DNA of 64,000 nt. It comes from Micromonospora sp. NBC_01699 (lineage in GTDB: Bacteria > Actinomycetota > Actinomycetes > Mycobacteriales > Micromonosporaceae). The first letter of the stretch is position 1. Every line of letters begins with the position of its first letter. The notes beneath the pieces were generated by a model. The model was not told the DNA's origin and made no database searches. It saw only the letters and a list, made by a program, of their open reading frames with translations. Positions 1 through 36,325 of the stretch are shown here, piece after piece. Position numbers and translations under genes: made by a program. The stretch is taken from positions 496,001-560,000 of the forward strand of contig NZ_CP109199.1 of the NCBI RefSeq assembly GCF_036250065.1, in the 5' to 3' direction.

Positions 1-297
1 CCCTGACCTGTGGGCTAGCAAATTAGAAGTGAGTTCGGGGGCAAATGTGGGCCCCTCGTGGGAGCCGTTGTCGGAACTCAATCGCTCAAGATCCACATCT
101 CATCGCAAGTCGTCCATATTGCCTGCTCATTGGGTATGTAGTTGAAGACTGCTGACTCCGGGCGGCGCACCTTTTGAGCTGTATTGCGTTGAACGTCTTG
201 AGCGGCTCGCTCGCTGGTTGGACTGCACCAGGTGGACTGCGGGCGGTATCGGTCCTGGTCCGTAGCGATCGCGCTGCTGTCAGCATGGAGGTCATCG
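1..297. other. Upstream flank of the integrase, no gene seen
   Basis: No reading frame here is convincing on either strand; the short open frames run antisense to one another and have no recognisable content. The last bases carry a good Shine-Dalgarno sequence (GGAGG at 286-290) that decides the integrase start. I see no tRNA 3' end or copy of the tRNA-Arg repeat found at 29.3 kb, so the left end of the island cannot be placed from this segment. Confidence 0.5.
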
Positions 298-1940: not shown

Positions 1941-2636
1941 ATGCTAGCACCGAAGGCAGTGGTCCTGCTCAGCGGTGGTTTGGACTCGACGACGGTGCTT
2001 GCCATCGCCCGTAGCGAGGGCTTCGAGCCCTACGCGCTGAGCTTCCGCTACGGCCAGCGTCACACCATCGAGTTGGAAGCCGCAGCCCGCGTTGCCCAGG
2101 CGTTCGGCGTTAGTAGGCATGTGGTGGCGGACATCGACCTGCGCGCGTTCGGCGGGTCGGCGTTGACCGACGACGCGATCGACGTACCCCACCACGACAG
2201 TGCTGATGATCTTGACTCCGACATTCCAGTCACCTACGTGCCGGCCCGCAACACGATCTTCCTGTCGTTCGCGCTGGCGTTCGCCGAGACGGTCGGCTCG
2301 TCGGACGTGTTCATAGGGGTGAGCGCCCTGGATTACAGCGGGTACCCGGACTGCCGGCCGGAATACATCGAGGCATATGAGCGGATGGCGAACCTGGCGA
2401 CCAGGGCTGGCGTGGAGGGCACTCAGCACTTGAAGATCCACACGCCGCTGGTGGCGCTGACCAAGGCGCAAACAATCAAGCGTGGTCTGGAGTTGGGTGT
2501 CGATTATGGGATGACGCACAGTTGCTACGACCCAGTCGATGGCCGCGCCTGCGGCACCTGCGACTCGTGTCTGCTCCGGATACGCGGCTTCGCCGAGTTG
2601 GGCATGGACGATCCGTCGATGGCTGCGGTCGCGTAG
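1941..2636 (+). CDS. queC: 7-cyano-7-deazaguanine synthase QueC
   Basis: A 231-residue ATP-dependent enzyme that converts 7-carboxy-7-deazaguanine (CDG) to preQ0, the last step of preQ0 synthesis. The N-terminal PP-loop SGGLDSTT (residues 11-18) binds ATP, and the C-terminal HSCYDP...[11 protein letters not shown] carries the four Cys that bind zinc in this family. Length is normal. I chose ATG 1941; an in-frame TTG at 1929 would add four residues. It is the first gene of the plus-strand dpd operon, three bases before queE. No queF follows, so preQ0 is probably the end product, destined for DNA through DpdA. Confidence 0.96.
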
Positions 2637-2639
2637 TCC

Positions 2640-3278
2640 ATGTACCGGGTGAAAGAGATTTTTTATACCTTGCAGGGTGAGGGCAGCCACGCCGGTCGTG
2701 CGTCAGTGTTCTGCCGCTTCACCAGTTGCAACCTGTGGACCGGTCGAGAAAGCGATCGACATCGGGCTGTATGTCAGTTCTGCGACACGGACTTTGTCGG
2801 CACCGACGGCCCCGGCGGGGGCCGTTTCCGTTCTGCGACCGACCTTGCCGCTGCCGTTGCGAAGGCATGGCAGGGAACGGCGCACCCGCGGGCCCGCCGC
2901 TACGTCGTGTGCACCGGCGGCGAGCCGCTGCTGCAGTTGGACGCTGCGGCGGTCGCGGCCCTGCACGATGAAGGGTTCGAAGTCGCAATCGAAACGAACG
3001 GCACCCGGCCGGCACCGGCCGGTATCGACTGGATCTGCGTGAGCCCGAAAGCTGAGGCAAAGGTTGTACTGACCTCGGGCGACGATCTGAAGTTGGTGTT
3101 CCCGCAGCCGGAGGCGATGCCTGACCGGTTCGAGCACCTCGACTTTCGCCGTTTCCTGTTGCAGCCAATGGATGGCCCTGATCGGGAAGCGAACACGGCG
3201 GCGACGGTGGCGTATTGCCTCGAACATCCGCAGTGGCAGCTCAGCCTGCAGACCCACAAGTACCTTGGGATCGCCTGA
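2640..3278 (+). CDS. queE: 7-carboxy-7-deazaguanine synthase QueE (radical SAM)
   Basis: A 212-residue radical-SAM enzyme that contracts 6-carboxy-tetrahydropterin to CDG. The cluster motif is not the usual CxxxCxxC: the first Cys (TSCNLW) is followed by 14 residues and then CQFC, giving Cx14CxxC, an arrangement known from some QueE proteins such as that of Burkholderia multivorans. CTGGEPLLQ is the GGE motif that contacts SAM, and VSPKAE lies in the substrate region. The stop overlaps the start of queD by one base (TGATG), so the two are translationally coupled. Confidence 0.95.
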
Positions 3279-3634
3279 TGGAAATCTTCCGCGAGTTCAC
3301 CTTCGAGGCCGCCCACCGGCTACCCCATGTGCCGGAAGGCCATAAATGCGCCCGGCTCCACGGCCACTCGTACAAGCTAGAGGTTCACATAAGCGGCGAG
3401 GTCGACCCGACGATGGGCTGGATCATGGACTTCGGTGATCTGAAGGCTGCCGTCAATCCGGTGATCGCTGAGCTAGACCACTACTACCTCAACGAGGTCC
3501 CTGGGTTGGAGAATCCGACCAGCGAGAACTTGGCTCGGTGGGCGTGGGAACGACTCGTCAACACGCTGTCGCTGTCGGCGATCGTGGTCAGAGAAACTTG
3601 CACCTCGGGTTGTGTGTATCGAGGTGAGCGGTGA
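3278..3634 (+). CDS. queD: 6-carboxy-5,6,7,8-tetrahydropterin synthase QueD
   Basis: A 118-residue protein of the PTPS/QueD family, which converts 7,8-dihydroneopterin triphosphate to 6-carboxytetrahydropterin. Zinc ligands are visible as His13 (FEAAHRL) and HGH at residues 28-30, with the catalytic Cys24 in KCARLHGH. The C-terminus [12 protein letters not shown] carries the conserved pterin-binding Glu and Cys. I chose ATG 3278, which overlaps the queE stop, over an upstream in-frame start at 3215 that lies entirely inside queE. Its stop overlaps the GTG of folE2 (GTGA). Confidence 0.95.
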
Positions 3635-4434
3635 CCCTCATCGATGTGCAGGCCCTACCCGACGAGCGCGGGGTCCCGTTGGAAACCGTGGGTGTTGACG
3701 GGTTGCGCTATCCGGTACTGGTCCGCGACGGCCAGGGCAATAAGCGGGACACGGTCGCCACTATGACCATGACCATTGATGTGGAGGCCGAGGTCAAGGG
3801 CGCGCACTTGTCGCGATTCGTTGAAGTGCTGCATGCCTGGCGCGACCAACTCGACGCTGCGACCATGCTGTTGATGGCCGACGACCTACGCCAGCGGATG
3901 GGCTCGCTCACCGCGACCGTATCGGCTGCCTTTGTCTACTTCCTAGAGCGGCAGGCGCCGGCGACCGGTGCGGCCTCGTTCATGGACTACCCATGCAGGA
4001 TCACCGTCATCAGCGGTCCGGCCGGTGGTCGGGTGTCGCTGCGCACCGAGGTGGCGGTAACCAGCGTTTGTCCGTGTAGTAAGGCGATCAGCGACTACGG
4101 CGCGCATAACCAACGTGGCCGGGTCACCATCGAAGCCGACCTGGCCAGTCCAGCCACCGGGCTGTGGTTCGACGACCTTATCGCCGTGGCGGAGCAGGCC
4201 GGCTCATCGCCGCTGTACGCACTACTAAAGCGCCCGGACGAGCGGTACGTGACGATGGCCGCCCACGACAATCCAGTCTTCGTCGAAGACATGGCCCGCA
4301 ACGTGGTGATCGCGCTCCGCGACGATCCACGGATCAACCGGGGCTGGGTGCGGGTCGTCAACGACGAAAGCATCCACAACCACGTCGCCTTTGCCCAGGT
4401 ATCGTGGCCCGTACCGTCTGGAGCTGGTTCGTGA
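3631..4434 (+). CDS. folE2: GTP cyclohydrolase I type IB (FolE2)
   Basis: A 267-residue GCYH-IB enzyme that opens GTP to 7,8-dihydroneopterin triphosphate, the entry point of both folate and preQ0 synthesis. [19 protein letters not shown] carries the catalytic Cys (Cys147, CxC with Cys149) and the His of this family. The start is GTG, overlapping the queD stop. Bacteria normally have a housekeeping GTP cyclohydrolase, so a dedicated copy here makes the operon self-sufficient from GTP to preQ0. Type IB enzymes are not strictly zinc-dependent as FolE1 is; whether this matters here is unknown. Confidence 0.93.
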
Positions 4435-5348
4435 CCAGCCAGCGTGGGCCGCTACACATCGTGGTCACCTGCGCGAACCGCAAACGTCACGCTGTCCCGG
4501 CCGACCTCCACCTGCGTACAGTCCTCCAGCGGCGCCCCGCAGATCGATTTGCCAGCTGGACCCGCCGGCTCGAGACATCTACCTCTCGCCGCTGCCCCGC
4601 GATCGACGCCTACGCCGGCGAACACTGGAAGGTCGTGCGTGAGCTGGTCGATTCCCGGGCCGGTCGGAACGCTCAGTTGTGGATTGCTTCCGCTGGCTAT
4701 GGCCTGATCCCGGCCGATGCTCCGATCTGTGCTTACGGCGCCACGTTCTCTGCGCCCGCCCCCGACACGGTGGGGGCGACAGTTGCGGAGGTGAGCGACT
4801 GGTGGCAGCGGCTAGGCGAGTGGGAGGGGCCCGCCGTCGGGCCCCGCACGTTCCAACAACTCGTCGCCGCCGACAGGTCGGCGACCGTAATCGCCGTATT
4901 GTCCGAGGCATACCAGCGGGCCTGTGCCGAGGACCTGCTCGCTGCTGCTGGGCTGCTCAACGGAGACACCCTGTCTGTCGTCGGGCCACCCGCCGCGCAT
5001 GCCCCGCTCGCGAATCTGCTGATCCCGGTCACCGCAGTGCTGCGTCACACCGTCGGGGGCAGCCTGCAGGCCCTCAACATCCGCGTCGCCAACTACCTAC
5101 TCGAACATGGCACCGGCACGACGCGCGTCGCGCTGCGTACGGCCGCCAAGGCTGCAGTCCCCGCCAACCCACCGGCGGCCCGCGCCGCAGGTCAGCGGAT
5201 GACAGATGTCGAGGTCGCTGCCTACATCCGCAGCCACGCCCATACCAGCGCCACCCAGTTGCTACGTCAGTTGCGCGCTACCGGCCGCTCGTGCGAACAG
5301 CACCGTTTTGCCGACCTGCATCGCGACGTTTGCGATGTGCACCGATGA
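4431..5348 (+). CDS. YaaA/DUF6884-like protein in the dpd operon
   Basis: A 305-residue protein of unknown function. The N-terminal half resembles the DUF6884/YaaA-type fold: HIVVTCANRKR near the start, then WIASAGYGLIPAD around residues 85-97, with a central strand-helix pattern. The C-terminal third (after about residue 255) looks like a short helical domain that could bind nucleic acid (MTDVEVAAYIRSHAHTSATQ). GTG 4431 overlaps the folE2 stop and its own stop overlaps the next ATG, so it is made with the preQ0 and DNA-insertion enzymes. In Salmonella, DpdC occupies the tailoring step that turns dPreQ0 into dADG. This gene is the positional candidate for such a step, but homology to DpdC cannot be shown here. 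Confidence 0.6.
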   Translation: MTSQRGPLHIVVTCANRKRHAVPADLHLRTVLQRRPADRFASWTRRLETSTSRRCPAIDAYAGEHWKVVRELVDSRAGRNAQLWIASAGYGLIPADAPICAYGATFSAPAPDTVGATVAEVSDWWQRLGEWEGPAVGPRTFQQLVAADRSATVIAVLSEAYQRACAEDLLAAAGLLNGDTLSVVGPPAAHAPLANLLIPVTAVLRHTVGGSLQALNIRVANYLLEHGTGTTRVALRTAAKAAVPANPPAARAAGQRMTDVEVAAYIRSHAHTSATQLLRQLRATGRSCEQHRFADLHRDVCDVHR

Positions 5349-6484
5349 TGACCGATCAGCCGACGGAGTTGCGGCGCCGCGCGCTGCGCATCGACCAGAT
5401 CAACGGACACCCGCTGTACCTGTTCGCACTTACCGCGGCTGAAGTGCTGCAGATCGCCGACGTGTCTCGGGTGAGCCGCGACGAGGCTAGCCGGCTAATC
5501 GGCTACCAGCGGCCCGAGGTTCGTAGCCATGTCCAGGACATCATCGACTACCTCAACAGCGGACCGGTGATCTTTCCTAACGCGATCATCCTGGCCCTGT
5601 CCTCCCGCGCGAGGTTTACTGGCAGCCGTGGACCCCGCACCCACGACGGGCTGGCCACTGCAGGCACGTTAAGACTCCCGCTGGCCGGTCCGGCACAGGC
5701 AAAGCCTGCGTGGATCGTCGACGGGCAACAACGGGCGATCGCCCTGTCCCGAGCCGAACGCCACGACTTCCCCGTGCCAGTTACCGCGTTCGTCGCCGAC
5801 GCGGTAAGCCTGCAACGCGATCAGTTCGTCCGCGTCAACAACACCCGCCCGCTGCCGCCGAGCCTGGTAACCGAACTTCTGCCAGAGGTGGACGCGCCGC
5901 TGCCCCAGCGGCTCAGCGTCCGTAAAGCGCCATCGATGGTGTGTGACCGGCTCAACAACGACGAGCGGTCACCGTTTCACCAGATGATCAAACGGGCCTC
6001 CACCAGCGGCAACGCCGTCCGCATCGCGGTGATCGCCGACAACAGCATCGTGTCGATGATCCAAGAGAGCCTCACTGCTGCGGCTGGCTGCCTGTACCCG
6101 TACCGGAACCTGACCAGCAACGAGATCGATGTTGACGGCATCCACCACGCCCTGTGCCTGTATTGGTCGGCAGTCCGCGACGCATTCCCAAACGCGTGGG
6201 GCAAACCCGCCAACGACAGCCGCCTCATGCACGGCGCCGGCATCCGGGCGATGGGAAGGCTCATGGACAGGGTGTTAGCAATCGTCGATCCGCGCCGTCT
6301 CGACGCCGCCGAACAGATTCGCAAGGAGATCGACTTGGTTGCCCCCTACTGCCGGTGGACCGCCGGCACCTGGGACCAGATCAACTTGCCGTGGAACGCG
6401 GTTGAGAACGTACCCGGCCAGATCCAGACACTGTCGAACTACCTTATTCGGGTCTACATCGATGCACGGGCGGCCCGATCATGA
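5345..6484 (+). CDS. dpdB1: DpdB-like DGQHR-domain protein, first copy
   Basis: A 379-residue member of the DndB/DGQHR family; DpdB works with DpdA to insert preQ0 into DNA in Salmonella. The signature is present as IVDGQQRAIAL (Asp126), preceded by IGYQRPEVRSHVQDIIDYL, which matches the ParB-like N-terminal region, and followed by FVRVNNTRPLPPSL. The C-terminus contains WNAVENVPGQIQ. It starts at ATG 5345 in an ATGA overlap. It is clearly paralogous to the gene at 7722: both share GYQRPE, VDGQQR, SRLMHG.GI..MG.LMD and a C-terminal WTxGTW block, but they are not near-identical, so the duplication is old. The dpdB symbol is by family resemblance. Confidence 0.85.
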   Translation: MMTDQPTELRRRALRIDQINGHPLYLFALTAAEVLQIADVSRVSRDEASRLIGYQRPEVRSHVQDIIDYLNSGPVIFPNAIILALSSRARFTGSRGPRTHDGLATAGTLRLPLAGPAQAKPAWIVDGQQRAIALSRAERHDFPVPVTAFVADAVSLQRDQFVRVNNTRPLPPSLVTELLPEVDAPLPQRLSVRKAPSMVCDRLNNDERSPFHQMIKRASTSGNAVRIAVIADNSIVSMIQESLTAAAGCLYPYRNLTSNEIDVDGIHHALCLYWSAVRDAFPNAWGKPANDSRLMHGAGIRAMGRLMDRVLAIVDPRRLDAAEQIRKEIDLVAPYCRWTAGTWDQINLPWNAVENVPGQIQTLSNYLIRVYIDARAARS

Positions 6485-7725
6485 AGTACTTTTTCCCCGA
6501 TAGCCAGGATCAGATCGACCCCAGCTTCGACTTCCTCACAGAGGAACGCGACCCCATGCGGGTACGCCAACGCGATGACTTGTACGCTCACGAGGTCTTC
6601 GATTCGCCGCCCTTTCATGGCTTGCTGGTCGCCAAGTCAATCGTGGACGGCTACTCGAGCGGCGTCGCGGGGAAGTACACCGGTGCGCAGCGCAATCGGC
6701 TGCGACGCGAAGGAGCCCGCCGGTTCTTCCGCCTGGACCATGTCCACGGCCCGCTGAGCATCATGGGCGACTGCGGCGCCTTCACCTATCATCAACTCGA
6801 TGAGCCGCCGTTCACCGTCGAGGAAGTCATTGAGTTCTACGACCGCAACGACTTCGATTACGGTATCTCCGTTGACCACATCGTGTTCAACCTGAAACCG
6901 CTGACGCCAGTCGATCCAGGGCACGAGTCGGTGCAGAAATGGGCCGACCGCCAGGATCTCACCCTCGACTATGCTAACCAGTTCTGGAAGCGATGCAAAG
7001 ACCGCAAGGTGCGCTTCGAGCCACTTGGGGTGGCGCAGGGCTGGAGCCCAGAGTCCTACGCCAAGTCCGTGAGAGAACTGCAGCGTATCGGCTACAGTCG
7101 TATTGCGATGGGTGGCATGGTCCCGTACAAGACTCCGGAGATCCTCGCCTGCCTCGCTGCCGTCGATGGGGAGCGTCACGCCGGTACCCAACTGCATCTG
7201 CTCGGGATCAGCCGTTGCGACAATATCCCGGCCTTCGCCGAGCACGGCGTGACAAGCTTTGACAGCACCTCGCCGTTCCTGCAGTCGTTCAAAGACGACC
7301 GCGACAACTACTACACACCCAATTCGACCTATGTCGCCATCCGGGTGAAGCAGGTGGAAGGTAACCCCGCACTACGCAAGAGGATCAGCGCCGGGGAGAT
7401 CGACCAGCGGAGGGCGATGACCCTCGAACGCGCCGCTCTTCGCCGGCTGCGCGAGTACGATGCCGGGCTAGCCACCATAGATGAAACCTTGACGGCCGTC
7501 CACGAATATAGCCAGTTGGTGGACCCCAAGGTCGACCGCCGCGCGGACTACCGGCGGACCCTGCAGGACATGCCCTGGAAGGACTGCAAGTGCCCGCTGT
7601 GCCGCAAGGAAGGCATCACCATCGCCATCTTCCGCGGAAGCGAGCGCAACAAGCGACGCGGCTTTCATAACCTGTACGTTTTCCGAAATCGGTTGCGTAC
7701 CCAACTCGGAGAGGACCCAATGTGA
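6481..7725 (+). CDS. dpdA: DpdA, TGT-like DNA transglycosylase inserting preQ0
   Basis: A 414-residue homologue of tRNA-guanine transglycosylase that exchanges guanine in DNA for preQ0. Residues alignable to TGT are Asp97 in MGDCGAFTY (TGT: DSGGF), Asp132 in GISVDHI (substrate recognition) and Asp261 in TSFDSTSPF, the likely nucleophile (TGT: FDCVxPTR). The C-terminal zinc site is Cys369-x-Cys371-x2-Cys374 with His396, close to the TGT spacing. The tRNA-specific PUA region is absent. It overlaps both neighbours by 4 bases and sits between the two dpdB copies. Assignment to the DpdA branch rests on these motifs and on the whole locus; roles of individual residues are inferred from TGT. Confidence 0.93.
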   Translation: MKYFFPDSQDQIDPSFDFLTEERDPMRVRQRDDLYAHEVFDSPPFHGLLVAKSIVDGYSSGVAGKYTGAQRNRLRREGARRFFRLDHVHGPLSIMGDCGAFTYHQLDEPPFTVEEVIEFYDRNDFDYGISVDHIVFNLKPLTPVDPGHESVQKWADRQDLTLDYANQFWKRCKDRKVRFEPLGVAQGWSPESYAKSVRELQRIGYSRIAMGGMVPYKTPEILACLAAVDGERHAGTQLHLLGISRCDNIPAFAEHGVTSFDSTSPFLQSFKDDRDNYYTPNSTYVAIRVKQVEGNPALRKRISAGEIDQRRAMTLERAALRRLREYDAGLATIDETLTAVHEYSQLVDPKVDRRADYRRTLQDMPWKDCKCPLCRKEGITIAIFRGSERNKRRGFHNLYVFRNRLRTQLGEDPM

Positions 7726-8882
7726 CGCAGGCACCTGACAGCCCGCAGAAGTCTGGCCGCCGACGGCTGCTGCGCCTGCCCGCGCTGCAGATCCAGCAGG
7801 GCCCAAACCGGCGCGTCTACACGTTCGCAATCGACGGGAAGCAGCTGCCGGACATCGCGACGGTGTCACGTATTCGCCGCGACGACACAACCAAGCTACA
7901 CGGCTACCAGCGGCCGGAAAGCGCGGCGCACGTCGGTGCGATTCGCCGCTACCTGGACACTGACCCGAGCCCTCTGCTGCCAAATGCAATCGTGATCGCG
8001 TTCGACGAGAGCGTCCGATTTCAGGGCAAGAAAGGCGCTGATGAGGACGGCCCTGGTTTCGTGCGGTCGGGCACCATTATTATTCCGATCATCGTCGACG
8101 GGCAGGAGGAGGACAAGCCCGGGTTCATCGTCGATGGGCAGCAGCGGAGTGCCGCAATCCGTGACTCGCGTCTTGACGAGTTTCCGGTGTGCGTGACCGC
8201 CTTCATTGCCGACACTCACGCCGACCAACGTTCTCAGTTCATCCTGGTCAACTCGACCAAGGCGCTTCCTAAGGGCCTTATCCATGAGTTACTGCCCGAG
8301 GCGTCCGGTGCGCTCCCAGCGCCGCTGATGGTCCGCCAAATACCGGCGACCCTCGTGGAACGGCTTAACTTCTTAAAAGAGTCGCCGCTGCACCGCATGA
8401 TCCAAACCCAGACCAACCCGAAAGGGCTGATCAAAGACAATTCGATGTTGCGGATGCTGGAGTCTAGTCTCAGTAACGGTGCCCTCTGGCCCTACCGCGG
8501 CGACAACGCTGCGCCGAACTATGACCGCATGACCTCGATCCTGAACAACTTCTGGAAGGCCGTCGCCGAGGTCTTCCCCGACGCGTGGAACAAACCGCCA
8601 CGCCAGTCTCGGCTCATGCACGGTGTAGGCATCATCGGTATGGGTGTGCTGATGGACGAGATCTCCCATGCACGCGGCAGTTCGGATGGAATTGTCACGG
8701 AGGCAGAGTTCGCAGCCGACTTGAAGGCCATCGCCGACGACTGCCACTGGACCGAGGGAACGTGGCCGTTCCCCGACGGCGAACGGGTCTGGAACGGTGT
8801 GGAAAACACCTCCCGCGACATCGCCAGAGTGCAGGAGTACCTCATCGACCGTTATCGTTACCGGGTCGGCGGTCGCGGCTAA
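7722..8882 (+). CDS. dpdB2: DpdB-like DGQHR-domain protein, second copy
   Basis: A 386-residue DGQHR-domain protein paralogous to the gene at 5345. It shows the N-terminal HGYQRPESAAHVGAIRRYL block, FIVDGQQRSAAI (Asp138) and FILVNSTKALP. It has an extra acidic stretch (GQEEDKPG) just before the motif. GTG 7722 overlaps the dpdA stop. Its last 41 bases overlap the 3' end of dpdD on the other strand, so the two operons collide here. DpdB may present DNA to DpdA or couple ATP hydrolysis to insertion. Why two copies are kept is unknown; a heteromer or different sequence contexts are possible. Confidence 0.85.
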   Translation: MTQAPDSPQKSGRRRLLRLPALQIQQGPNRRVYTFAIDGKQLPDIATVSRIRRDDTTKLHGYQRPESAAHVGAIRRYLDTDPSPLLPNAIVIAFDESVRFQGKKGADEDGPGFVRSGTIIIPIIVDGQEEDKPGFIVDGQQRSAAIRDSRLDEFPVCVTAFIADTHADQRSQFILVNSTKALPKGLIHELLPEASGALPAPLMVRQIPATLVERLNFLKESPLHRMIQTQTNPKGLIKDNSMLRMLESSLSNGALWPYRGDNAAPNYDRMTSILNNFWKAVAEVFPDAWNKPPRQSRLMHGVGIIGMGVLMDEISHARGSSDGIVTEAEFAADLKAIADDCHWTEGTWPFPDGERVWNGVENTSRDIARVQEYLIDRYRYRVGGRG

Positions 8883-16854: not shown

Positions 16855-19751
16855 CGTGTGGCCTGCTCTTCAAGGCGGTCGGCAAGGGTTCTGAACGCGT
16901 TGTGCAGGCGCGCCCGGTCGTAGGTGTCTGTGGGCCCATCATCCACCGGGTTGAAAGAGCGCACCGAACGCAGAAGGCTGTCACAGTTTCGCCAAAACGC
17001 CAGGATGTTCTTCAGCATCGGTGTCTGGTCCTGCGGAAGCTCCCACAGCATGGCCGGGCTGATGGTGGTTTCTCGTCGCTTGAGCAGCTGCCGAAGTTTA
17101 GTGAGATGTCCTGGTGCGGCTGCGGCCCGGAGCTCTTCGTACCGGCGGTGTGCTTCTGGGTCTTTCAATACACCAGCGCGGAGGGCTTGCTCGACGAAGC
17201 GATCCATGACCTGTAGCGTCTCCGTGAAGTCCTCCGACGGGCCAATCTGCTGCGTGATCGCGGCTAGCGTGCCTTTGACCGGTGCCCATGCCGACGTGGC
17301 GGCCACGGTCTGTTGATCGCGCACTGCTCGCCACATCAGGTTGGTCGCCGCGCCGTTTCCGGGAAGTTCACTCAGTCGTGCTGCGGGCAGCAAGTCCTCT
17401 AGCACTGCTCCCGCGTCGAAGATTGTCGGAAGGCCGGTGGACTTGCGTTGTGTGAAGTGATCTCGCACCACGGTTAACGCTTCCGTCCGTTGCCGCTCGA
17501 CCGCACCGAGAAACTTCACGATCTCCGGGTGCAGGTTCTCCGGCCGCTGCGGCCTGACCATGATCGCGATAGCCTCTGCCGGGCTGGTAGGAGTTCGTTC
17601 GTCGGCGCTGCTCAGCACACCAAGCACTGCCAGCGCGTTGCCTATCTCGTCCTCGGGCTGTTGCGACGCCCGGTCGACGATCTCCCGCTCCCACGTGTCG
17701 AGTCGCGCCTGGAGGTCGAAGAACCAACGGCCAGCATTCGGGCCCGCGAGATCCCCGGTGTCCGACGACAGAATGCCTTTGAGGACCACCGCGTCAGTAT
17801 CACTTTGTCGAAACTGAATCGTAAGTTCCTCAGGTGGGTTACCGCCACCGCCCGCGTTGTGCACCACCACGTGCCCCTGAGTGATGTCGACAGCTCCGAC
17901 TCGAACGCTGCCGCGCGAGCGGTAGACGCTGAGGCTATGTGGGTGGTTGAGCAGCCGCAGGGCCAGGGCATCGATTACCCACCGTCGAATCTTGCGCGCA
18001 TCGTTGCTCGGCAGTCGCTCACCGTTGGCCCACGCATCGATGGTCGAGGGAGCGGTAACGGCGGCCGGCGTTGGCTGCGCGGCCTCGGGAGCTGAGGTCT
18101 CAAGACCAAGATCGGTAAGTTCGACTCCGAACACCATGGCAATCGAATCCAGCGTCGGATCGCTCGCTATTGGGTTGGCCGCGTAGAACGCCCGTAGGCT
18201 GATCTCGGCCTCGCCGCTTGCAGAGCCTCTCGTGATCGTGTCACGTGTCACCAGCGGCACTCTGGTGCGGGTAGGGGCGAGGGTGGCTGCGAAGCGCGCC
18301 GACGGGAACATACCGGGCGTAGCCAGTTCCGCCTCGGCTACCTCCAGCGGGGCGCGAACGACCTCTCGCAGGATGTTGCGCGGATCGAACCTGTCGGGGC
18401 TTGCCAGCTCAACGAGCCGATCCACCGCGACCGCGTTGAACGGGAACAGGCCATGCCCCTCGTCGGTCGTGCCGAACATCGGATGGCACCTGTCCCGGTA
18501 CCTGCAACCGGTGCACTTGTTCGGTCTCGGCGAGCCAAGGTGTCTCGCCTGCGCGAGCTCGTGGCGCCCGACCCGACCAGCATTGAGGTAGCGGCCGACG
18601 AACATGCGAAGGTCGCCGGGGTCTATCTGCTCGCGCGGGACATCCATCGTGTAGTGCACACCACGTTCTGCGAAGGTGTCGTAGCGGGTGTCGAGATGAC
18701 CGGTGGTGACGGCTATCACCGCCCGGATCGGACACAGATCACGCCGGGCAGGCAGTGTCAACGCGTGCGCCAACTGCCCGTCGATACCATGCAGGAGTAC
18801 CAAGTCTTCGATGAAAAGGAATAGCTGCTGACCTCGGCGAGCCAATTCGCCTCGGACGTCTTCGAAGACGCCAAGCAGGTCGGTCCCGCTGCCAGTGATG
18901 GCCGCGGCGGTTGCTCGGGGCACGTAGTAGTCGATAATCGCGGCGGCCTCCGTCCGACGGCCCTCGTTGGAGGCCAGGGACCGGATCAGGACCTGGAAGT
19001 CCTGGCCCGCGTCCTCGAAGGCCTCGGCGTCGACTCGCAGGTCCGATTGGCGAAACCGAAGATCCTCTGGACTGACGGTGGCCTCGGAGTCGTAGCCGTG
19101 CATGGCGAGCTTTACGATCCGCTCGATCGGCCCGCTCGGGCGTGAAAGCTGCTGCTTGAACATGAAGTCGCCGATCAGACGGGCGACAAAGGTGCGAGAT
19201 TCTGCGAGATCGGGCCCAGACAGGCCAGCGATCGTAGGAGCCTCGTCGAACGTCACGAGTTGGTGGAGTTGGTTCAGGACCGCAAGCATTGCCTCCTCAA
19301 CCGTAGTGACCTGCGCCGCAGCGTGAACCAGGCTGATCCGAAGCGTGTTGGCGGTTGGCGTGTCGATATCGGTCAAAATCTGCTCGATGATCCGCCGCAA
19401 CGAGGTGTTGCGCTTCTCGATGTAGACCAGGTGCCACTTATCGTTGCGAGGTATCTGGGTCCGCAGCCACCGGACCAAGTGACTCTTCCCAGTACCGGTC
19501 TGTCCGGTAATGAACCGGATAAGCGGCTCATTCGAGGTGATCGGTTGACAGAGGTCGTTGAGTACATCTCTCTCGCTCGCCGGCTGCTGCTGCTTATTCT
19601 TGCCGAGCCGGGCGAGAGGTACAGACTGATGGACCGCGTCGAATAGGGCGCTGGAGGCGTCGTCCTCGAAGTCGAGCGCGCCGACGTCGACCTGAGCAGC
19701 GTTCTGAATCTCTGCCCGCGACCAGCAGGGCGGTATCGACAGCGTCGTCAC
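16851..19751 (-). CDS. dpdH: DpdH, P-loop ATPase of the dpd restriction module
   Basis: A 966-residue cytoplasmic protein with an N-terminal ATPase domain. Walker A is TGQTGTGKSHLVRW (about residues 82-95) and a hydrophobic Walker B-like strand ends in LFLFIEDL near residue 310. A small Cys cluster (CTGCRYRDRCHP, about residues 420-431) may bind zinc. The rest is helical with no known domain that I can see. The start is GTG 19751, overlapping the dpdG stop (GTGA); an upstream in-frame ATG at 19784 lies inside dpdG. The DpdG-DpdH pair is adjacent in known dpd loci. It could act as a loader or motor ATPase; role inferred. Confidence 0.82.
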   Translation of the reverse strand: MTTLSIPPCWSRAEIQNAAQVDVGALDFEDDASSALFDAVHQSVPLARLGKNKQQQPASERDVLNDLCQPITSNEPLIRFITGQTGTGKSHLVRWLRTQIPRNDKWHLVYIEKRNTSLRRIIEQILTDIDTPTANTLRISLVHAAAQVTTVEEAMLAVLNQLHQLVTFDEAPTIAGLSGPDLAESRTFVARLIGDFMFKQQLSRPSGPIERIVKLAMHGYDSEATVSPEDLRFRQSDLRVDAEAFEDAGQDFQVLIRSLASNEGRRTEAAAIIDYYVPRATAAAITGSGTDLLGVFEDVRGELARRGQQLFLFIEDLVLLHGIDGQLAHALTLPARRDLCPIRAVIAVTTGHLDTRYDTFAERGVHYTMDVPREQIDPGDLRMFVGRYLNAGRVGRHELAQARHLGSPRPNKCTGCRYRDRCHPMFGTTDEGHGLFPFNAVAVDRLVELASPDRFDPRNILREVVRAPLEVAEAELATPGMFPSARFAATLAPTRTRVPLVTRDTITRGSASGEAEISLRAFYAANPIASDPTLDSIAMVFGVELTDLGLETSAPEAAQPTPAAVTAPSTIDAWANGERLPSNDARKIRRWVIDALALRLLNHPHSLSVYRSRGSVRVGAVDITQGHVVVHNAGGGGNPPEELTIQFRQSDTDAVVLKGILSSDTGDLAGPNAGRWFFDLQARLDTWEREIVDRASQQPEDEIGNALAVLGVLSSADERTPTSPAEAIAIMVRPQRPENLHPEIVKFLGAVERQRTEALTVVRDHFTQRKSTGLPTIFDAGAVLEDLLPAARLSELPGNGAATNLMWRAVRDQQTVAATSAWAPVKGTLAAITQQIGPSEDFTETLQVMDRFVEQALRAGVLKDPEAHRRYEELRAAAAPGHLTKLRQLLKRRETTISPAMLWELPQDQTPMLKNILAFWRNCDSLLRSVRSFNPVDDGPTDTYDRARLHNAFRTLADRLEEQATR

Positions 19752-20710
19752 GAGCGTTCCTTCGCCACGTCTTGTGGGTGCCATTCCAGATGGGAGACGT
19801 TTCGACCTGCCCTGTCCGAGCCCAGAGAAATGACCATGGAGTCGCGGTCACTTTCGGCGGGCGGGATGCTCACGTGGCCGGATGCCTCCAGTTGCGACAG
19901 CGTCATTGATAATCCGGGGGAAATCTCCCGCGGATCGTCAGGCTTCCAATGAGTGCGAGACCCTCCGTCGCTGATCGGCAGCTGGCGGACGCAATGGTCG
20001 ATGAAGTCTCTCACCCGGTATCGCGACCGTGGCAAAGAGTGCAAATCGGCCACGAGGGCCTGGCTCGCCTCGGCGATGACTGACTGCTTGCCAACGTGCT
20101 GCGCGTACCCCAGATAGGCCGCCCATCGGCGGAAGGGCGCGAATTGTACGACGTTCGTTATTGGCCAGTCTGCCTTGTTCGGGCCGTACCAGTGGGCTTG
20201 GGCGAAGTCGAATCGGCGACCGCTACCACCCTCGAAGTCAAATGGGCGCAGTGGCTCGGGCCACGCGTGCAGGACTGCCAGGGCGTTCACGAGATCGCTG
20301 TCAGGGTCGGCAGGCAGCGCGTCGTCGCCCGCAGTCGCACCTTGCCACAGTTGAGAGCGGAGGACTCGGCTGAGGGATCGGGCGGACACATCGGATGGCT
20401 TCGACCAGTGACGGCGAGCAGTATCCGTTGCGACAATCTCGGCACCCTCGGCGGAGACGAGCTTGAAGGCTGTTAAGGCAATTAGTGATCGGGTGACAAT
20501 GAGATTGCCGCTTGTGGAGTTGTTCTCGTTATCGCCGTCATCTGGCTTGTCGCCTTCGAAGGGCTTCATGGTCTCGGGGAGGCCCTCGGGTGCCACTAGT
20601 AGAAGGAGATCCGATTTGTTGCAGCGTGCGTCGGTGTGGGCCAACACGGCACGCAGTAGGTACCGCAATGCCTCGGGCACAACGTCAGGCGACGTCGTCA
20701 TCACACCCAT
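19748..20710 (-). CDS. dpdG: DpdG-like protein
   Basis: A 320-residue protein without an obvious enzymatic motif. The N-terminal part (MTTSPDVVPEALRYLLRAVLAH) and repeated helix-turn-helix-sized segments suggest winged-helix modules. HWKPDDPREISPGLSMTLSQLEASGHVSI near the C-terminus looks like a wHTH unit. ATG 20710 lies two bases after the dpdF stop. DpdG is reported as needed for restriction in Salmonella. The identification comes from position next to the dpdH ATPase, size and cytoplasmic character. DNA recognition or complex assembly are plausible roles. Confidence 0.65.
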   Translation of the reverse strand: MGVMTTSPDVVPEALRYLLRAVLAHTDARCNKSDLLLLVAPEGLPETMKPFEGDKPDDGDNENNSTSGNLIVTRSLIALTAFKLVSAEGAEIVATDTARRHWSKPSDVSARSLSRVLRSQLWQGATAGDDALPADPDSDLVNALAVLHAWPEPLRPFDFEGGSGRRFDFAQAHWYGPNKADWPITNVVQFAPFRRWAAYLGYAQHVGKQSVIAEASQALVADLHSLPRSRYRVRDFIDHCVRQLPISDGGSRTHWKPDDPREISPGLSMTLSQLEASGHVSIPPAESDRDSMVISLGSDRAGRNVSHLEWHPQDVAKERS

Positions 20711-20712
20711 GG

Positions 20713-23154
20713 TCAGACCTTCCTCAGTAAATCGTAGATGTCGTAGCTGGGCGTCCACGCTTCGTGCAGGAACTGTTTGGGATTGCGCGGATCACGTCGT
20801 GTCGTCGGCGTGAGGACCACCCCAAGTGTTTGATTTGTCAGCGACGTTAACGCCCGGGCAAGGTCGGTGTCGTCGAGTCCGTGGTCCACAATAAGCAGCG
20901 TAGGCACACGCCAAGGTGCCAGGCGCCGCTCGATGAGCGAGGCTATGTCCTCCTGCCACCAGGGGTTCGGTGATCTTGAGGTCCATGCGGTGCTCGACAG
21001 CGCGGCTACGACGACGATGCCCCTCCTGATCAAGCGGTCCACCAGCGATCGGACGGCTGCGGGGTCAGGTGCGTCGAAGCGCACGCTCAGCCGGCGATCG
21101 ACCGATAGCGCCCGCAGGTCGTCGTGCGCCTCCATGCTGATAGTGCCCGCCACGAGCGTGTGGTGCATGGGCGCGGAGCGCGGCAGGCTGCCAATTCGGC
21201 GGCAGTGCGGGCATCCGCCGCAGGCAACGGAGACCGGGAACCGGTCGCCGCTCTCGTCTTCGACCTGGTAGTTCCTTGCTAGGTAGCGGTTGGTGCATTC
21301 ATTGAGGCCACGTACGAGATGGGTAGCCGCAGCGAGAGCTGCAGCGGATCCGCTGCGAGCGCTACGCTGGCCGGCCGCGAACCGGGTCTTGAAGGTTGAC
21401 TCATCGTCGAGATCGCTCTGGAGTACTTCGACGGCTGCGGCGGACCGCTGGTTGTCAAACAGCACCTCCAAGGTGTCGTCATCCGCATCGTCGGGAACGT
21501 TTTCGGGAATAGGCCACTGGCGGCGGACCATCTTGGCGCGATCCATGGCCGAGAGTGTCTGGATGTTCCAGTAGATGTTCGCGTCGCTTGATGGATACTT
21601 CACACCCGCGTGGTCCGCCCGCAGATCGACGGTGAGGTGCGTCCCAGACCACTTTCCGTTGCGCATACTCTTCCAGCGTCTCCACGCAAGGTCCACACCG
21701 AGCAGACGCTCGTGGGAGATGGACTCCGCGAGGGCCATGTCGGCGGCAGTCCACAGCACGAGCGATGTCGTGGCCAAGCCGTCGCGCCCGGAACGGCCCA
21801 CCTCCTGGTAGAGGCGATCTATTGTCTCCGGAACACACGCGTGAATGACCGTACGGATGTCTGGAATGTCGATTCCCAGACCGAACGCAGACGTCGCCAC
21901 GACGACGTCGAGGTCGTCTTCCAGAGGCCCGCTCAAGCGAAGGCCGGCCACTGCAGCCTGTCGGCGTTGTGGACTGGGATTGTCGGCGATCTCGATCGTC
22001 GATCGGAAACCCGCCTTTCGAAGCCATGACTGGACAGTCTTGGTGTTGGTCGATCGCTCCGACGTGTGCAGGGTCGTGTAGACCAGAGCGGGCCGGGGTA
22101 GGTGACGGAGCGCCTCGATCAGCCGGTCGCGTTTCTCATTCTCGGTGGCACAGTGTGCGTTCCACCACGCGGGCTCCGGGCGAGTCGCCTGTCCAGACAC
22201 GATCAACCGGTTCCGCCCAGGGAAGAGCCGTGTCAGCGTGGCCAGGCCGTAGGTGTCGAGGGTCCCAGTGAGCAGTACCGTGGTCGCCTGCCGCCCGTCA
22301 GGAGCCACGGCGAGCAGGCGTTGCCGCAAGCCAGCGAACGTATGGAAGGCGGGCCGGAAGGCATCGCCCCACTCAGCCACAATGTGTGCCTCGTCGATGA
22401 CGATCATGTCGAGTGTGCCGCGGTTCGCAGCCTCCAGGAGTGGTCTGGCAAGGGAGAGACACGCGGCCTCGGGGCCGGCGATCGTAAGCCACTGGGAGCC
22501 GGCAGCGATACCTGTATGGATTCGGTCCTTGATAGCGCCGTCGGCGGCTCCGTAGTACGCGAACCGCTCGGTCGTCTTCAGGAAATCCTGCACTCGGCGT
22601 TCAAGGTCGATTGCTAGCGACACCGTTGGAACGATGATGATGGCCTGCTGCGGTCGGTAGCGGATCGCGCGCGTGAGCACGACGTCTGTCTTGCCTGAAC
22701 CGGTGGGCAGCACGCAGATCACCGTGTCGCCTGGGCCGGCAAGCGCGGTCGCACGCAACGCGTCGCGCTGAGCGAGCGTCTTGGCGGTTGCCTGCCCGGT
22801 CGCACCTTCGTAAAAGCGGTCGGCCGGCACGCTGCCGTCGAGCCGGCGTCGAGCCCGGCGGCTGACTGGTTCGTCGGGCGGGGCACCGCCGTGCGTATCG
22901 AGCCAGCTCGGCTGCCACGGAGTTAGGGTGAGCGTGTCGCCATCTTTGAGGAGGCCATGCGGTTGCCAGATCGCTGTATCCCAACTCCGCATGGGTGTGT
23001 CGATCAGATTTAACGTGCTGGCACGGGCAAACATGAGGCCGGATCGGACAAGGACGGCGACTTCGTGCGGCGCAGGGTTGTTTGCTGCCAGGCGGCGGTC
23101 GAGCCTCGGGTCGTTGTGCCGCAGGTCGCCGAGGGCGATGGTCGGTCCGGTCAT
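20713..23154 (-). CDS. dpdF: DpdF, RecQ-like helicase
   Basis: An 813-residue superfamily 2 helicase of RecQ type. Walker A is VLPTGSGKTDVVL, motif II is VIDEAHIVAEWGDAFRPAF (the RecQ-like W-G-x-x-F-R-P-x-F continuation is clear), motif III LLTGTLD and motif VI YQEVGRSGRDG. A Cys pair cluster CGGCPHCRR in the C-terminal third suggests a zinc site. ATG 23154 overlaps the dpdE stop in ATGA. In dpd loci DpdF accompanies DpdE and DpdJ, giving three helicases in one system, all present here. Confidence 0.87.
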   Translation of the reverse strand: MTGPTIALGDLRHNDPRLDRRLAANNPAPHEVAVLVRSGLMFARASTLNLIDTPMRSWDTAIWQPHGLLKDGDTLTLTPWQPSWLDTHGGAPPDEPVSRRARRRLDGSVPADRFYEGATGQATAKTLAQRDALRATALAGPGDTVICVLPTGSGKTDVVLTRAIRYRPQQAIIIVPTVSLAIDLERRVQDFLKTTERFAYYGAADGAIKDRIHTGIAAGSQWLTIAGPEAACLSLARPLLEAANRGTLDMIVIDEAHIVAEWGDAFRPAFHTFAGLRQRLLAVAPDGRQATTVLLTGTLDTYGLATLTRLFPGRNRLIVSGQATRPEPAWWNAHCATENEKRDRLIEALRHLPRPALVYTTLHTSERSTNTKTVQSWLRKAGFRSTIEIADNPSPQRRQAAVAGLRLSGPLEDDLDVVVATSAFGLGIDIPDIRTVIHACVPETIDRLYQEVGRSGRDGLATTSLVLWTAADMALAESISHERLLGVDLAWRRWKSMRNGKWSGTHLTVDLRADHAGVKYPSSDANIYWNIQTLSAMDRAKMVRRQWPIPENVPDDADDDTLEVLFDNQRSAAAVEVLQSDLDDESTFKTRFAAGQRSARSGSAAALAAATHLVRGLNECTNRYLARNYQVEDESGDRFPVSVACGGCPHCRRIGSLPRSAPMHHTLVAGTISMEAHDDLRALSVDRRLSVRFDAPDPAAVRSLVDRLIRRGIVVVAALSSTAWTSRSPNPWWQEDIASLIERRLAPWRVPTLLIVDHGLDDTDLARALTSLTNQTLGVVLTPTTRRDPRNPKQFLHEAWTPSYDIYDLLRKV

Positions 23155-26100
23155 AGGCTTGGGTCGGTTATGAGGACGACGCCGCAGGCGTCGATAGCTA
23201 GATGAGGATTTTGCACGGCGGCCACGACGGCCCTGAGAACGGCGGCATCCAGTGTGGGTCCGGCACTGGCATCTAGGTGGGCCTGGAGGATGGCGCTCTC
23301 ATGAGCCAACATCACCTCTGCGCCCGCCGCCGCTGCCGCTGCGGTCTCCTGGACCGCGTCCCGTTGCGCTGCCACTCGCAAGGCCCCGGCGGCTGCGCGC
23401 TCGCACAGATGCTGCCAGTCGAGGCCGTAGGTCAGGTGGTGGAACCGCTCCGGATCCACGCCGAGGTCATGCCCCGTAGCCGAGGCAAGCGCCTGACGTG
23501 CACGCTCGTCGGGTTCGCCGTGTATCGAGTGCCACCATACGGTCTCCAGTCGTGGCGGGAACAGTTGACCGAGTCGGGCTGTTGCTGCCGCCCCGGCTGC
23601 CGGGTCTTTCGCGTAGAGGTGGTCGACGGGCGCCGGCCCCGGCGTCACAATCACGTTGAACCTGAAGAACGTCAACACCGACTGAGGGTCGCGGCGCGGC
23701 TGGCGAACCTCGATGGCGAAAGCACGTCCCCGTTCGTCCATCATCGCGAGATCGACGAACCGGTTGACCATCGGCTCGCCCCACCGCAGCAAGCCGATTC
23801 CGTCGACTGCCGCAGCACGGCGGCTGGCGTAGCGGCGGCGCAGGTGGTCCGGTCCGATCTGATGGATCTGCGACTCTGTTAGACGCGGCGGTTGCCGCGA
23901 ACTGATACCAAAACGCGTGCTGTTCTTTCCGACATCCTCGGTAAATCGCAGGGTCTTGACGACATAGTCGCGGAACTTGCCGGAGATTCGGGGTGATCCA
24001 TCAGTCGATTGCATGCTGTCGGCCAAGTGCTGATCGTCGGCCCGGTCCTCGATTGTGTCCAGTAGGTCCTGACCCTCGATTCGACGACGCTGAGCCTCGA
24101 GGTCGTCGCGCCGGGCGACCATCTGCTTGGCTGCGTCTGGGAGTCCTGAGTCGAGGGCTAGCTCGATGAACCCGTTTTCAAGCTCGGGCAGTACGTACTG
24201 CAGTGTCGCGCTCGACTGACCGAAGATGTCGACGCCTTCGTCGAGTACCCGTCGCCATGCCCCGAGGTGAGCGTCCAAGCGTTCGTCGGCTTCAGAGAAG
24301 ACAGTGGATCTCACCGGGGACGTGATGGCAGAGCCCCGTGGAGCCCATCGATCAAAGCGCCCGAGACGTTGCTCAAGGCGGGCGTTGCTAACCGGGAGAT
24401 CGAGATGAAGGACCTCTTCGACGACCTGCAGGTTCAGACCCTCTTCGCTACCCCGGTCGATCACGACGATCGACCGAGAGGGTTCTGCGAGGAACAGGCT
24501 TCCGGCCTCGTCGCGCGCTTCGACGCTCATTGTCGACAGCAGGCGTACCACGCGCCCAGAGCCGAACTGCGTCTCCAGCCGTAGGGCGGCGGCCTCGGCG
24601 GTGGCCGGAAAAGAGGTGGCTACGGCAACTCGGCGCACACCGATATGGGGCCATGCCCATTCGATCATCACGTCAAATCGGTCGTTCTCCGTGCCAAGGG
24701 TCAGAATCTGGTCAATGCGATTCGCCAGCGATCGCCCAACAGGGGTGTCGGTGAGACCGTCGAGGGCGGCAGCCTCAGCCGCATCAAGATCGTGACCGGG
24801 CTCCGCGCGCAGGGCAATTGCTGCATCGGCCAACGCGGTTATAGGGGCCATGGCTCTTCCGAGCATTGCCCGGAATGCGGCGGCGGGGTTCACGGTATTG
24901 GACTCATACAACTCCATCCGTAGGTCTTCCATCAGGCGTTGAACCTCTGTCCGCCGGGTATCTGGGTCGGCAAGCAGCCACTTCTTTCCGCCGGTCCGGC
25001 CGCGGACAGGAAAAAGTTTCGCCAAGGACCCGCTGCGGCGGGTTCTGATCAGTCGACGGTGAATTCGATGCGTCTCGCTAAGTCGGGTGTGCACCCTCCG
25101 AGAAATGGCCCGTGCGGTGGCGGCATCCCGACTGGTGATTGCTGTGTCGAGCAGGTCCAGCTCACAGGCTAGCCACTGTTCGTTGGGCAGCAACCTCCGT
25201 AATGTCGTCGCTGGTTCGTTGAGGAATCGAACCGGAGTCTCGTCGCTCATCGAGGCGAGCGCCTGCGCCAGATCGTCCCTGATTTCCACTCGACGTCGAA
25301 AGTTGGCGATGTCGTCCAACGGGTAGGTTGTTGGGTCAAGGAGATGCAGCATCCTCAGGAAGCCATCCTCGTTCGATCGGACTGGCGTCGCAGACAGGAG
25401 CAACAGGCACTTGGCGGCCTTGGTGATCGCGCAGAGCGATGTGTAGCTGTGGTCGACGTCGGCGTCTAACGCCGTGAGCCGGTGCGCTTCGTCGACGACG
25501 ACGAGCAGTCGCGGTGCTGCGTCAATGGCTGGAACCTCGGAGTGAGCAGCGATCGAGACTCGGTTTGGGTACTGGTCGACACGAAACTTTGAGTGAAGCT
25601 CGCTATCCCACTGGGCGACCAGGCCGTCTGGCGCAATGACCAGAATATCGCCAGCTTCGTCCATCATTAGTTGTCGAAGGATCATTCCCGCTTCGACTGT
25701 TTTGCCCAGCCCGACCTCGTCCGCGAGGAGATATCTCTTTACTGGATCTGCTAGAACCCGGCGGGCGGCACCGATTTGGTGGGCATGGAGCTCGACTCCG
25801 GACGACCAGATGCCGGCTAGTCCTTGGGAGGCTGCACGCTGTCGCATGATGTCGCCAACGAAAGCGGCGCGGCCGTCATGGAAGCCTTTACTCTCGACTA
25901 CGCCGGCCTTCAGGAACGGCAAAGGATCGACAAGGGGCAACCTCCTTCGAACGCGCAATAGGTCGGCGGAAATATATTTCGTTCCGCCCTGTGTAAGGTC
26001 AACTAGATAGACGTCACCATTATCGCTCGGGCTATCGGCATACCCGGTGAGCCACCATCCTGCGTCCTTGAACCAGACCCGCTGGCGGTGCTCGAGTTGA

Positions 26101-26309
26101 ACGATAGTGAAGTCCGACGTGAAGGGCATGGCGATCTCGTCGATGCCGGGGGCGTCGAAGAACCAGACCAGCGATCCGCCGCCAGCTATCCTTCCGATGC
26201 CGTAGATCGGGTGCCTGACGAAGTGGTCAGCCACCGAGTCGCCGCTTCCGACGGACACCGTGCGTCGTCCGAGCCGCGCGCGAGCCCATGCCACCTCCGA
26301 CTGGCGCAT
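23151..26309 (-). CDS. dpdE: DpdE, SNF2-family helicase
   Basis: A 1052-residue SNF2-type translocase and first gene of the minus-strand operon. Walker A is LLADEVGLGKTVEAG and motif II is VVVDEAHRLTA. The helicase C half shows VVIDRGSEEGLNLQ and LEQRLGRFDRWA. The N-terminal ~100 residues contain short beta strands (GIGRIAGGGSLVWFFDA) typical of SNF2 proteins such as RapA/HepA. The C-terminal ~250 residues are Ala-rich helix. The start ATG 26309 has no strong ribosome binding site, and a start a little downstream (GTG near VSVGSG) is possible. DpdE is required for restriction in Salmonella. Confidence 0.87.
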   Translation of the reverse strand: MRQSEVAWARARLGRRTVSVGSGDSVADHFVRHPIYGIGRIAGGGSLVWFFDAPGIDEIAMPFTSDFTIVQLEHRQRVWFKDAGWWLTGYADSPSDNGDVYLVDLTQGGTKYISADLLRVRRRLPLVDPLPFLKAGVVESKGFHDGRAAFVGDIMRQRAASQGLAGIWSSGVELHAHQIGAARRVLADPVKRYLLADEVGLGKTVEAGMILRQLMMDEAGDILVIAPDGLVAQWDSELHSKFRVDQYPNRVSIAAHSEVPAIDAAPRLLVVVDEAHRLTALDADVDHSYTSLCAITKAAKCLLLLSATPVRSNEDGFLRMLHLLDPTTYPLDDIANFRRRVEIRDDLAQALASMSDETPVRFLNEPATTLRRLLPNEQWLACELDLLDTAITSRDAATARAISRRVHTRLSETHRIHRRLIRTRRSGSLAKLFPVRGRTGGKKWLLADPDTRRTEVQRLMEDLRMELYESNTVNPAAAFRAMLGRAMAPITALADAAIALRAEPGHDLDAAEAAALDGLTDTPVGRSLANRIDQILTLGTENDRFDVMIEWAWPHIGVRRVAVATSFPATAEAAALRLETQFGSGRVVRLLSTMSVEARDEAGSLFLAEPSRSIVVIDRGSEEGLNLQVVEEVLHLDLPVSNARLEQRLGRFDRWAPRGSAITSPVRSTVFSEADERLDAHLGAWRRVLDEGVDIFGQSSATLQYVLPELENGFIELALDSGLPDAAKQMVARRDDLEAQRRRIEGQDLLDTIEDRADDQHLADSMQSTDGSPRISGKFRDYVVKTLRFTEDVGKNSTRFGISSRQPPRLTESQIHQIGPDHLRRRYASRRAAAVDGIGLLRWGEPMVNRFVDLAMMDERGRAFAIEVRQPRRDPQSVLTFFRFNVIVTPGPAPVDHLYAKDPAAGAAATARLGQLFPPRLETVWWHSIHGEPDERARQALASATGHDLGVDPERFHHLTYGLDWQHLCERAAAGALRVAAQRDAVQETAAAAAAGAEVMLAHESAILQAHLDASAGPTLDAAVLRAVVAAVQNPHLAIDACGVVLITDPSL

Positions 26310-32233: not shown

Positions 32234-32312
32234 AGATGGACCTGTCGGGGCATCGACCGAAGCCGTCAACTTGGCGAACGCGGCGGCTATCGTGTTTCAG
32301 GAGGGTGGCCGG

Positions 32313-36236: not shown

Positions 36237-36325
36237 CCTCGGTCCGCTGTCTTGCACGAAGCTTGTGGGCCGGGCTTCCCTGTGACATGGACAGCTGATC
36301 GAGGCTTCCTGGACGTCTGCGTCCG

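Follow-up and report, generated by a model that had tools for sequence, protein, structure and literature searches.

A candidate Dpd restriction–modification island with two position-specific DpdB families beside a tRNA-Arg(CCT) gene of Micromonospora sp. NBC_01699

The closest described relatives of the locus presented here are the dpd (7-deazaguanine in DNA) islands, among them the dpdA–dpdK island of Salmonella enterica serovar Montevideo, which was reportedly worked out in studies by Thiaville (2016), Yuan (2018) and Gedara (2023). The portions of PMC11888242 available to us count 333 unique dpd windows in Actinomycetota, cite measured 7-deazapurines in the DNA of Kineococcus radiotolerans, and place most dpd genes, with the exception of dpdD and dpdI, in over 70% of islands; some islands are described without a restriction operon, and 801 additional copies of dpdB are counted over all phyla. 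In the available part of PMC12458937 a YprA-family helicase, DpdJ in Dpd, is common to DISARM, Druantia and BRIGADE; no DpdA or DpdB is described there for DISARM and Druantia, and BRIGADE, which has a predicted 7-deazaguanine cluster, is found only in halophilic archaea. We analysed a window of 64,000 nt of Micromonospora sp. NBC_01699 (NZ_CP109199.1, 496,001–560,000), whose genome consists of a single 8.28-Mb contig; positions are those of the window unless marked as genome (C1). With a probability of roughly 0.93, we consider that the window carries a Dpd restriction–modification island at tRNA-Arg(CCT), which would mark the host DNA and attack DNA without the mark. As dpd islands have been published for Actinomycetota, and resemble this one in phylum and in combining synthesis and restriction operons (PMC11888242, as far as available), it is a further example of a known system, and its setting in an actinomycete is less special than an initial annotation of the sequence had implied. 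It follows the A–K scheme of the Salmonella island, with synthesis and restriction halves (second-hand, from the same portions of PMC11888242), but has in addition an upstream DpdB and a complete set of preQ0 genes that includes folE2, and its DpdI is unrecognised by models.

Seventeen genes form an unbroken series from an integrase (232–1728) through dpdE (ending at 26309). On the plus strand, between 1929 and 8882, queC, queE, queD, folE2, dpdC, dpdB1, dpdA and dpdB2 are packed so that neighbours overlap or lie only a few bases apart. The minus strand carries, from 26309 to 8842, dpdE, F, G, H, a gene at the position of dpdI, J, K and D, all eight frames being open and tightly packed. In a scan restricted to consensus sequences, neither a terminator nor a promoter was recognised between the converging ends of dpdB2 and dpdD. 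All the gene classes named in the initial annotation were found where it had put them, in these two dense runs, though its list omitted dpdC (4431–5348). The family matches described below are of a size that is not due to chance.

The dpdA gene (6481–7725, plus strand) encodes a predicted DNA-guanine transglycosylase that matches the DpdA model NF041059 with 575 bits (cut-off 200). The models for tRNA-guanine transglycosylase (TGT) score far lower, PF01702 giving 25.1 bits (gathering threshold 26.3), TIGR00432 25.5 (350) and TIGR00449 15.1 (47.6). The sole PDB sequence matched at E ≤ 0.001 is 7ui4, a DNA-guanine transglycosylase aligned end to end (6.9e-120), which we take to be the Salmonella protein. 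The identification of the protein as a tRNA-TGT was rejected on these scores and on the match to 7ui4; to judge from its sequence, DpdA is not a tRNA enzyme. The "TGT-like transglycosylase" of the initial annotation, which had proposed this comparison, thus groups with DpdA. In an alignment of seven DpdAs, from the window, one further genome of the phylum and five plasmids, D97 (GDCGAF), D261 (TSFDSTSP), C369, C371, C374 and H396 are invariant; by analogy with tRNA-TGTs these would presumably be the catalytic aspartates and zinc ligands. A contig scan with this alignment gave at least 583 pattern matches and 468 confirmed relatives. The named loci referred to below are the best 80 of the 468, a selection that tilts proportions toward DpdAs like the window's; with one further genome, five plasmids and the window they make up a set of 87 loci.

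The genes for preQ0 supply head the plus-strand run, as had been annotated, and all four products exceed an equivalog cut-off. They are queC (1929–2636, with an ATG at 1941; TIGR00364, 209 bits, cut-off 150), queE of the Cx14CxxC type (2640–3278; TIGR04508, 357 bits, cut-off 240), queD (3278–3634, starting at the ATG at 3278 in a reading frame open from 3215; TIGR03367, 115 bits, cut-off 89) and folE2, encoding a GTP cyclohydrolase (3631–4434; NF010200, 248 bits, cut-off 215). The product of dpdC (4431–5348, plus strand) is a YaaA/DUF6884-type protein, predicted to carry out a nitrile-to-amide step, which matches the PADLOC model PDLC02817 (1.4e-66) over residues 8–301; its match to PF03883 is weak and under the gathering threshold. 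Family membership of DpdC predicts 2′-deoxy-7-amido-7-deazaguanosine (dADG) as the base made, which narrows the earlier statement that the final base was unknown. On either side of dpdA lie dpdB1 (5345–6484, plus strand) and dpdB2 (7722–8882, plus strand), with 420 and 464 bits to the DpdB model NF041060 (cut-off 300); these are the DGQHR-domain proteins that had been noted.

The three helicases of the initial annotation correspond to DpdE, DpdF and DpdJ. The SNF2 helicase gene dpdE (23151–26309, minus strand, as are all those in this half) matches NF041062 with 763 bits (cut-off 500), the RecQ-like dpdF (20713–23154) matches NF041063 with 623 bits (cut-off 550), and dpdJ, a YprA-like DEAD/DEAH helicase (11636–16096), reaches 1534 bits with NF041067 (cut-off 800) and 1393 bits with PDLC02896. 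The phospholipase D (PLD)-type protein is DpdK (11100–11639; NF041068, 145 bits, cut-off 100), whose translation holds a single HxK(x4)D motif, HEKAIAGD, and dpdD (8842–11103) matches NF041061 with 409 bits (cut-off 300). The P-loop ATPase is DpdH (16851–19784; PDLC02891, 2e-91), and dpdG (19748–20710) stands at its expected position with a weak match to the PADLOC DpdG model (3.3e-8). Between dpdH and dpdJ, at 16090–16854, is a gene for a 254-residue protein at the dpdI position, a relative of which occupies the same position in Micromonospora sp. U21 (L049). The system is complete except for DpdG, which is sub-threshold, and DpdI, which is assigned by position and by the relative in U21. Completeness is otherwise backed by scores above the cut-offs for the four preQ0 genes, for A, both Bs, D, E, F, H, J and K, and by the PADLOC match for C.

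The borders of the element lie outside the dpd genes. A 44-bp repeat that resembles an attachment site, with 27 and 16 identical bases around one mismatch (alternatively 96% over 47 bp), is found on the right at 29263–29306, where it is the 5′ half of an intact tRNA-Arg(CCT) gene on the plus strand (29265–29340, by ARAGORN), and on the left at C1:495924–495967, 34–77 bases left of the window start. The 29.3 kb between the copies enclose all the dpd genes. Adjoining the left copy is the tyrosine recombinase gene (232–1728, plus strand, start codon uncertain; PF00589, 6.9e-15; Phage_int_SAM_3, 2.1e-5), so that direct repeats of a tRNA gene enclose an integrase and the dpd cluster is by anatomy an island. 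Insertion at tRNA-Arg(CCT) was probably by the island's own integrase, and the island may be mobile. The initial annotation had set the extent at 1941–26309, which covers the dpd genes; the element is larger, and its cargo includes a DUF6907 protein (27296–28648, plus strand; PF21848, 5e-15). GC content in 1-kb steps is 0.60–0.68 to about 32 kb of the window and mostly 0.66–0.75 beyond; the right border is therefore unmarked by GC.

Taken together, these genes suggest the following mechanism. FolE2, QueD, QueE and QueC would convert GTP to preQ0, and DpdA, with ATP-using ParB/sulfiredoxin (Srx)-like DpdB subunits, would swap guanine for preQ0 in the host DNA. DpdC would hydrate the nitrile to give dADG, while DpdD–DpdK, with the helicases E, F and J, the ATPase H and the PLD protein K, would act on unmarked DNA. 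The comparison of the DpdBs to ParB and Srx proteins comes from AlphaFold2 models of DpdB1 (mean predicted local distance difference test score 88, predicted template modelling score 0.66) and DpdB2 (91 and 0.85). In second-look alignments of the DpdB1 model the top 16 rows are ParB, Noc, PadC, KorB and sulfiredoxin proteins, with Z 5.2–6.8 and mostly about 90 residues; for DpdB2, KorB comes first (Z 6.5), then glutamate dehydrogenase (5.5), then ParB/Srx rows mostly at 4–4.7. The resemblance of both models to ParB/sulfiredoxin domains, in the N-terminal half, is suggestive only. In a search by sequence for solved relatives of DpdB the best E was 0.11.

The product of the preQ0 genes might alternatively go into queuosine in tRNA or into a deazapurine natural product, and not into DNA, and preQ0-derived natural products are known from actinomycetes. 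No tRNA-TGT was found in the host genome with PF01702, in a search that was positive in 14 of 14 control genomes and by which an ordinary TGT should have been picked up, nor was QueF, the same search for which was positive in eight of the 14; the queC of the island is also the only QueC match of the genome (12 of the 14 controls were positive). With no TGT, QueF or second QueC detected, the preQ0 of the island has no detected outlet except DpdA. The genes lie directly upstream of dpdC-B-A-B, and queC, queE and queD are all present in the stored flanks of 57 of the best 80 DpdA loci. We regard a destination in tRNA or a natural product as scarcely credible. A second alternative is that the island only modifies, the base being made while the restriction half, with DpdG and DpdI diverged, does not work, and that the mark serves in regulation or in protection against other enzymes. 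Islands without a restriction operon are among those reported in the available portions of PMC11888242, and a congener (G442) has queC-queE-queD-dpdA-dpdB in a 20-kb stretch that showed none of the genes D–K. Against this, DpdJ, E, F, D and K score above their cut-offs, the minus-strand frames are all open and packed, and a DpdI that is missing or unrecognised is not unusual, as the same portions of PMC11888242 name dpdI, with dpdD, as an exception to the 70% rule. We therefore hold this alternative to be improbable, though less so than the first, and prefer an island that both modifies and restricts.

Several observations weigh against that preferred reading. The genome search for TGT also skipped DpdA at E ≤ 0.001 and would overlook any TGT of similar divergence. 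In the restriction half, DpdH is only marginally above its cut-off (NF041065, 455.5 bits against 450) and DpdG is under its own (NF041064, 60 bits against 80). Neither Pfam nor NCBIfam nor PADLOC has a model that matches the protein at the dpdI position, and its single comparison with the counterpart in an Enterobacter plasmid (L030) gave E 0.015, which is not a convincing match. A relative of it was recognised in two of the five loci (window included), of the 87, that have both J and H in the stretch. The assignment of dADG depends on the family membership of DpdC only. With Foldseek neither DpdB model matched any PDB entry at E ≤ 0.001, the ParB/Srx call uses alignments with Z 4–7, a range flagged as common, and in the DpdB2 model glutamate dehydrogenase ranks above every ParB/Srx row except KorB. 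No empty site was recovered in two congeners (G404 and G442), both of which carry the tRNA gene with other inserts, and the left flank beyond the inserts and the right flank map away from the tRNA gene in both.

The interpretation put forward in the initial annotation, of an island that modifies its host's DNA and excludes foreign DNA, is nonetheless supported at the level of sequence. The island is bounded and appears self-sufficient, carrying genes for preQ0 synthesis, modification, restriction and integration, and no other preQ0 user was found among the searches of the genome for TGT and QueF. Any 7-deazaguanine in the host DNA would for that reason most likely be derived from the island, making the strain a clean test bed.

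The two DpdBs of the window belong to different families. DpdB matches of less than 250 bits or fewer than 250 residues were excluded before tree building, leaving 153 of 163 matches. Over the 87 loci, 68 have DpdBs both upstream and downstream of dpdA, 16 have a downstream copy only, one an upstream copy only and two none; in the upstream-only locus (L069) the downstream match, close to where the contig stops, is short and fails the filters. In a FastTree of the 153 proteins a single branch (support 0.856) splits the 69 upstream from the 84 downstream copies with none misplaced, DpdB1 falling in the upstream-type clade and DpdB2 on the downstream side, so that position predicts family without exception. 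A more careful tree of 77 rows was made from 28 selected among the 68 two-DpdB loci, all 16 downstream-only loci and five outgroup DGQHR proteins. Here the upstream type is one group (100/100), and the downstream type requires two changes and is a single group in 2% of 200 bootstrap trees; one downstream protein (L031_D) and another row join the long outgroup rows, a kind of join flagged as often false. At five columns each type has a different residue that is fixed in at least 90% of its sequences, R12, I82, L85, R163 and S219 in DpdB1 and P20, V91, F94, L175 and T231 in DpdB2 (numbered on the full-length proteins of the window). The portions of PMC11888242 available count extra dpdB copies and do not present them as two families flanking dpdA.

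Among the best 80 loci, DpdB lies on both sides of DpdA in 64, including all 53 from class Actinomycetes, and eight of nine from Acidimicrobiia have the downstream copy only. Two-DpdB loci in this set span Actinomycetota, Myxococcota, Planctomycetota and Pseudomonadota. The four-state arrangement label changes 11 times on the DpdA tree, where shuffled labels change 17.9 times on average. Distances over the 2278 pairs of the 68 two-DpdB loci correlate with those of DpdA at r 0.955 for DpdB2 and 0.802 for DpdB1; this says only that A, B1 and B2 move as a set, with A and B2 most closely linked, as shared ancestry alone yields high r. One metagenome bin of an Acidimicrobiaceae holds two dpd clusters (L051 and L052); both DpdBs are present in one cluster and the downstream copy only in the other, and the clusters could come from two strains. 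An extra, more distant DGQHR protein (91–190 bits) is present in five loci (L034, L056, L059, L064 and L109).

The split suggests, from sequence comparison, either a two-part DpdB or two jobs. ParB-type NTPases work as dimers, which makes a mixed DpdB1–DpdB2 assembly the most economical explanation; otherwise the two proteins might differ in target specificity, DpdB1 might be regulatory, or the pair might be redundant. Were the second DpdB a redundant duplicate with no role of its own, one would expect features that are indeed seen. The VDGQQR motif is kept in 69 of 69 upstream and 84 of 84 downstream proteins, the downstream copy stands alone in 16 of the 87 loci, and the DpdA tree points to several probable gains or losses of DpdB1. 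A redundant copy is harder to reconcile with an upstream type that forms one clade and lies upstream of dpdA in every one of its 69 loci, with five columns fixed differently between the types, and with the retention of both in 68 of the 87 loci and across four phyla, and we consider redundancy unlikely. As a tentative proposal, to which we give somewhat less than even odds, in most of the sampled Dpd systems, that of the window among them, DpdA may depend on two DpdB families that are obligate and cannot replace each other, and whose split predates the dispersal of the cassette among the phyla sampled. The two would act as a mixed ParB-like NTPase assembly or in separate site or strand targeting, and systems with a single DpdB, as presumably that of Salmonella, would be a reduced form. 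The position-locked pair raises the question of how DpdA is powered or aimed, which is part of the specialist interest of the island.

DpdA above cut-off is sporadic in the host family: of 300 genomes sampled there, 20 carry it, as do two of 396 sampled from the phylum, the host being included in both counts; the other 20 matches in the phylum set score 17.8–25.4 bits and are probably ordinary TGTs. Actinomycetota account for 64 of the best 80 named loci and dpdC is present in 78. Within the stored flanks of these loci the restriction half is laid out, relative to dpdA, as a convergent D′K′J′ in 38, a codirectional EFGH in 27 and upstream in five, with none in the flank in ten. The closest of the 80 is Micromonospora rubida NEAU-HG-1 (L035), which on a contig of 25.9 kb has the same order, qC-qE-qD-qF-C-B-A-B-D′-K′-J′, as far as the stretch goes, with identities to the window of 85% for DpdA, 90% for DpdB1 and about 80% for DpdB2. 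The Enterobacter cloacae plasmid pPOL9A (L030) resembles the window in having C-A-B followed by a convergent D′K′J′-(unnamed gene)-H′G′F′E′, but has a single DpdB of the downstream type and no preQ0 gene recognised in its 41-kb stretch. The cluster of congener G442 (L145; C1:5725001–5745000) is reduced to queC, queE, queD, dpdA and one downstream dpdB, and no dpdC or restriction gene was detected within its 20 kb.

The tRNA-Arg gene has probably received other inserts. A further 5′ fragment of it at C1:470930–470982 (91% over 53 bases) suggests that another element of about 25 kb, C1:470930–495921, was inserted in tandem on the left side of the island. It encodes a C5 cytosine methyltransferase, a Z1-domain protein, an HNH protein, an ApeA/PDC-S58-like protein and two GIY-YIG proteins that are Eco29kI-like, slightly under that model's cut-off. 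In G404 and G442 pieces of the same tRNA gene lie 20–27 kb from the intact copy. The stretch beside tRNA-Arg(CCT) in G442 (C1:2172001–2204000) has two separate integrase frames that match the integrase of the window with 532 and 491 bits, and encodes a 1857-residue Druantia DruE1 (1954 bits). In G404 tRNA-Arg fragments flank the intact gene on both sides, and the upstream stretch encodes an SNF2 helicase (PADLOC C3a139 HKD+Snf2, 415 bits). With Dpd here and Druantia in a congener, these inserts point to an integration site shared by different defence cargoes. The best matches in G442 to the flanks, queried from left of the second insert and right of the island, are at 2,579,195 and 8,207,073, and its tRNA gene is at 2,173,675; because the flanks map elsewhere, "same site" refers to the same tRNA gene and not to synteny. 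To the right of the island are genes for a BTAD/AAA/TPR transcription regulator (32271–35411) and a Calx-beta protein (35400–36512), presumably host genes. About 460 bases downstream of the intact tRNA gene, at 29787–29819, is a partial copy of its 3′ half, perhaps left behind by an insertion on the opposite side.

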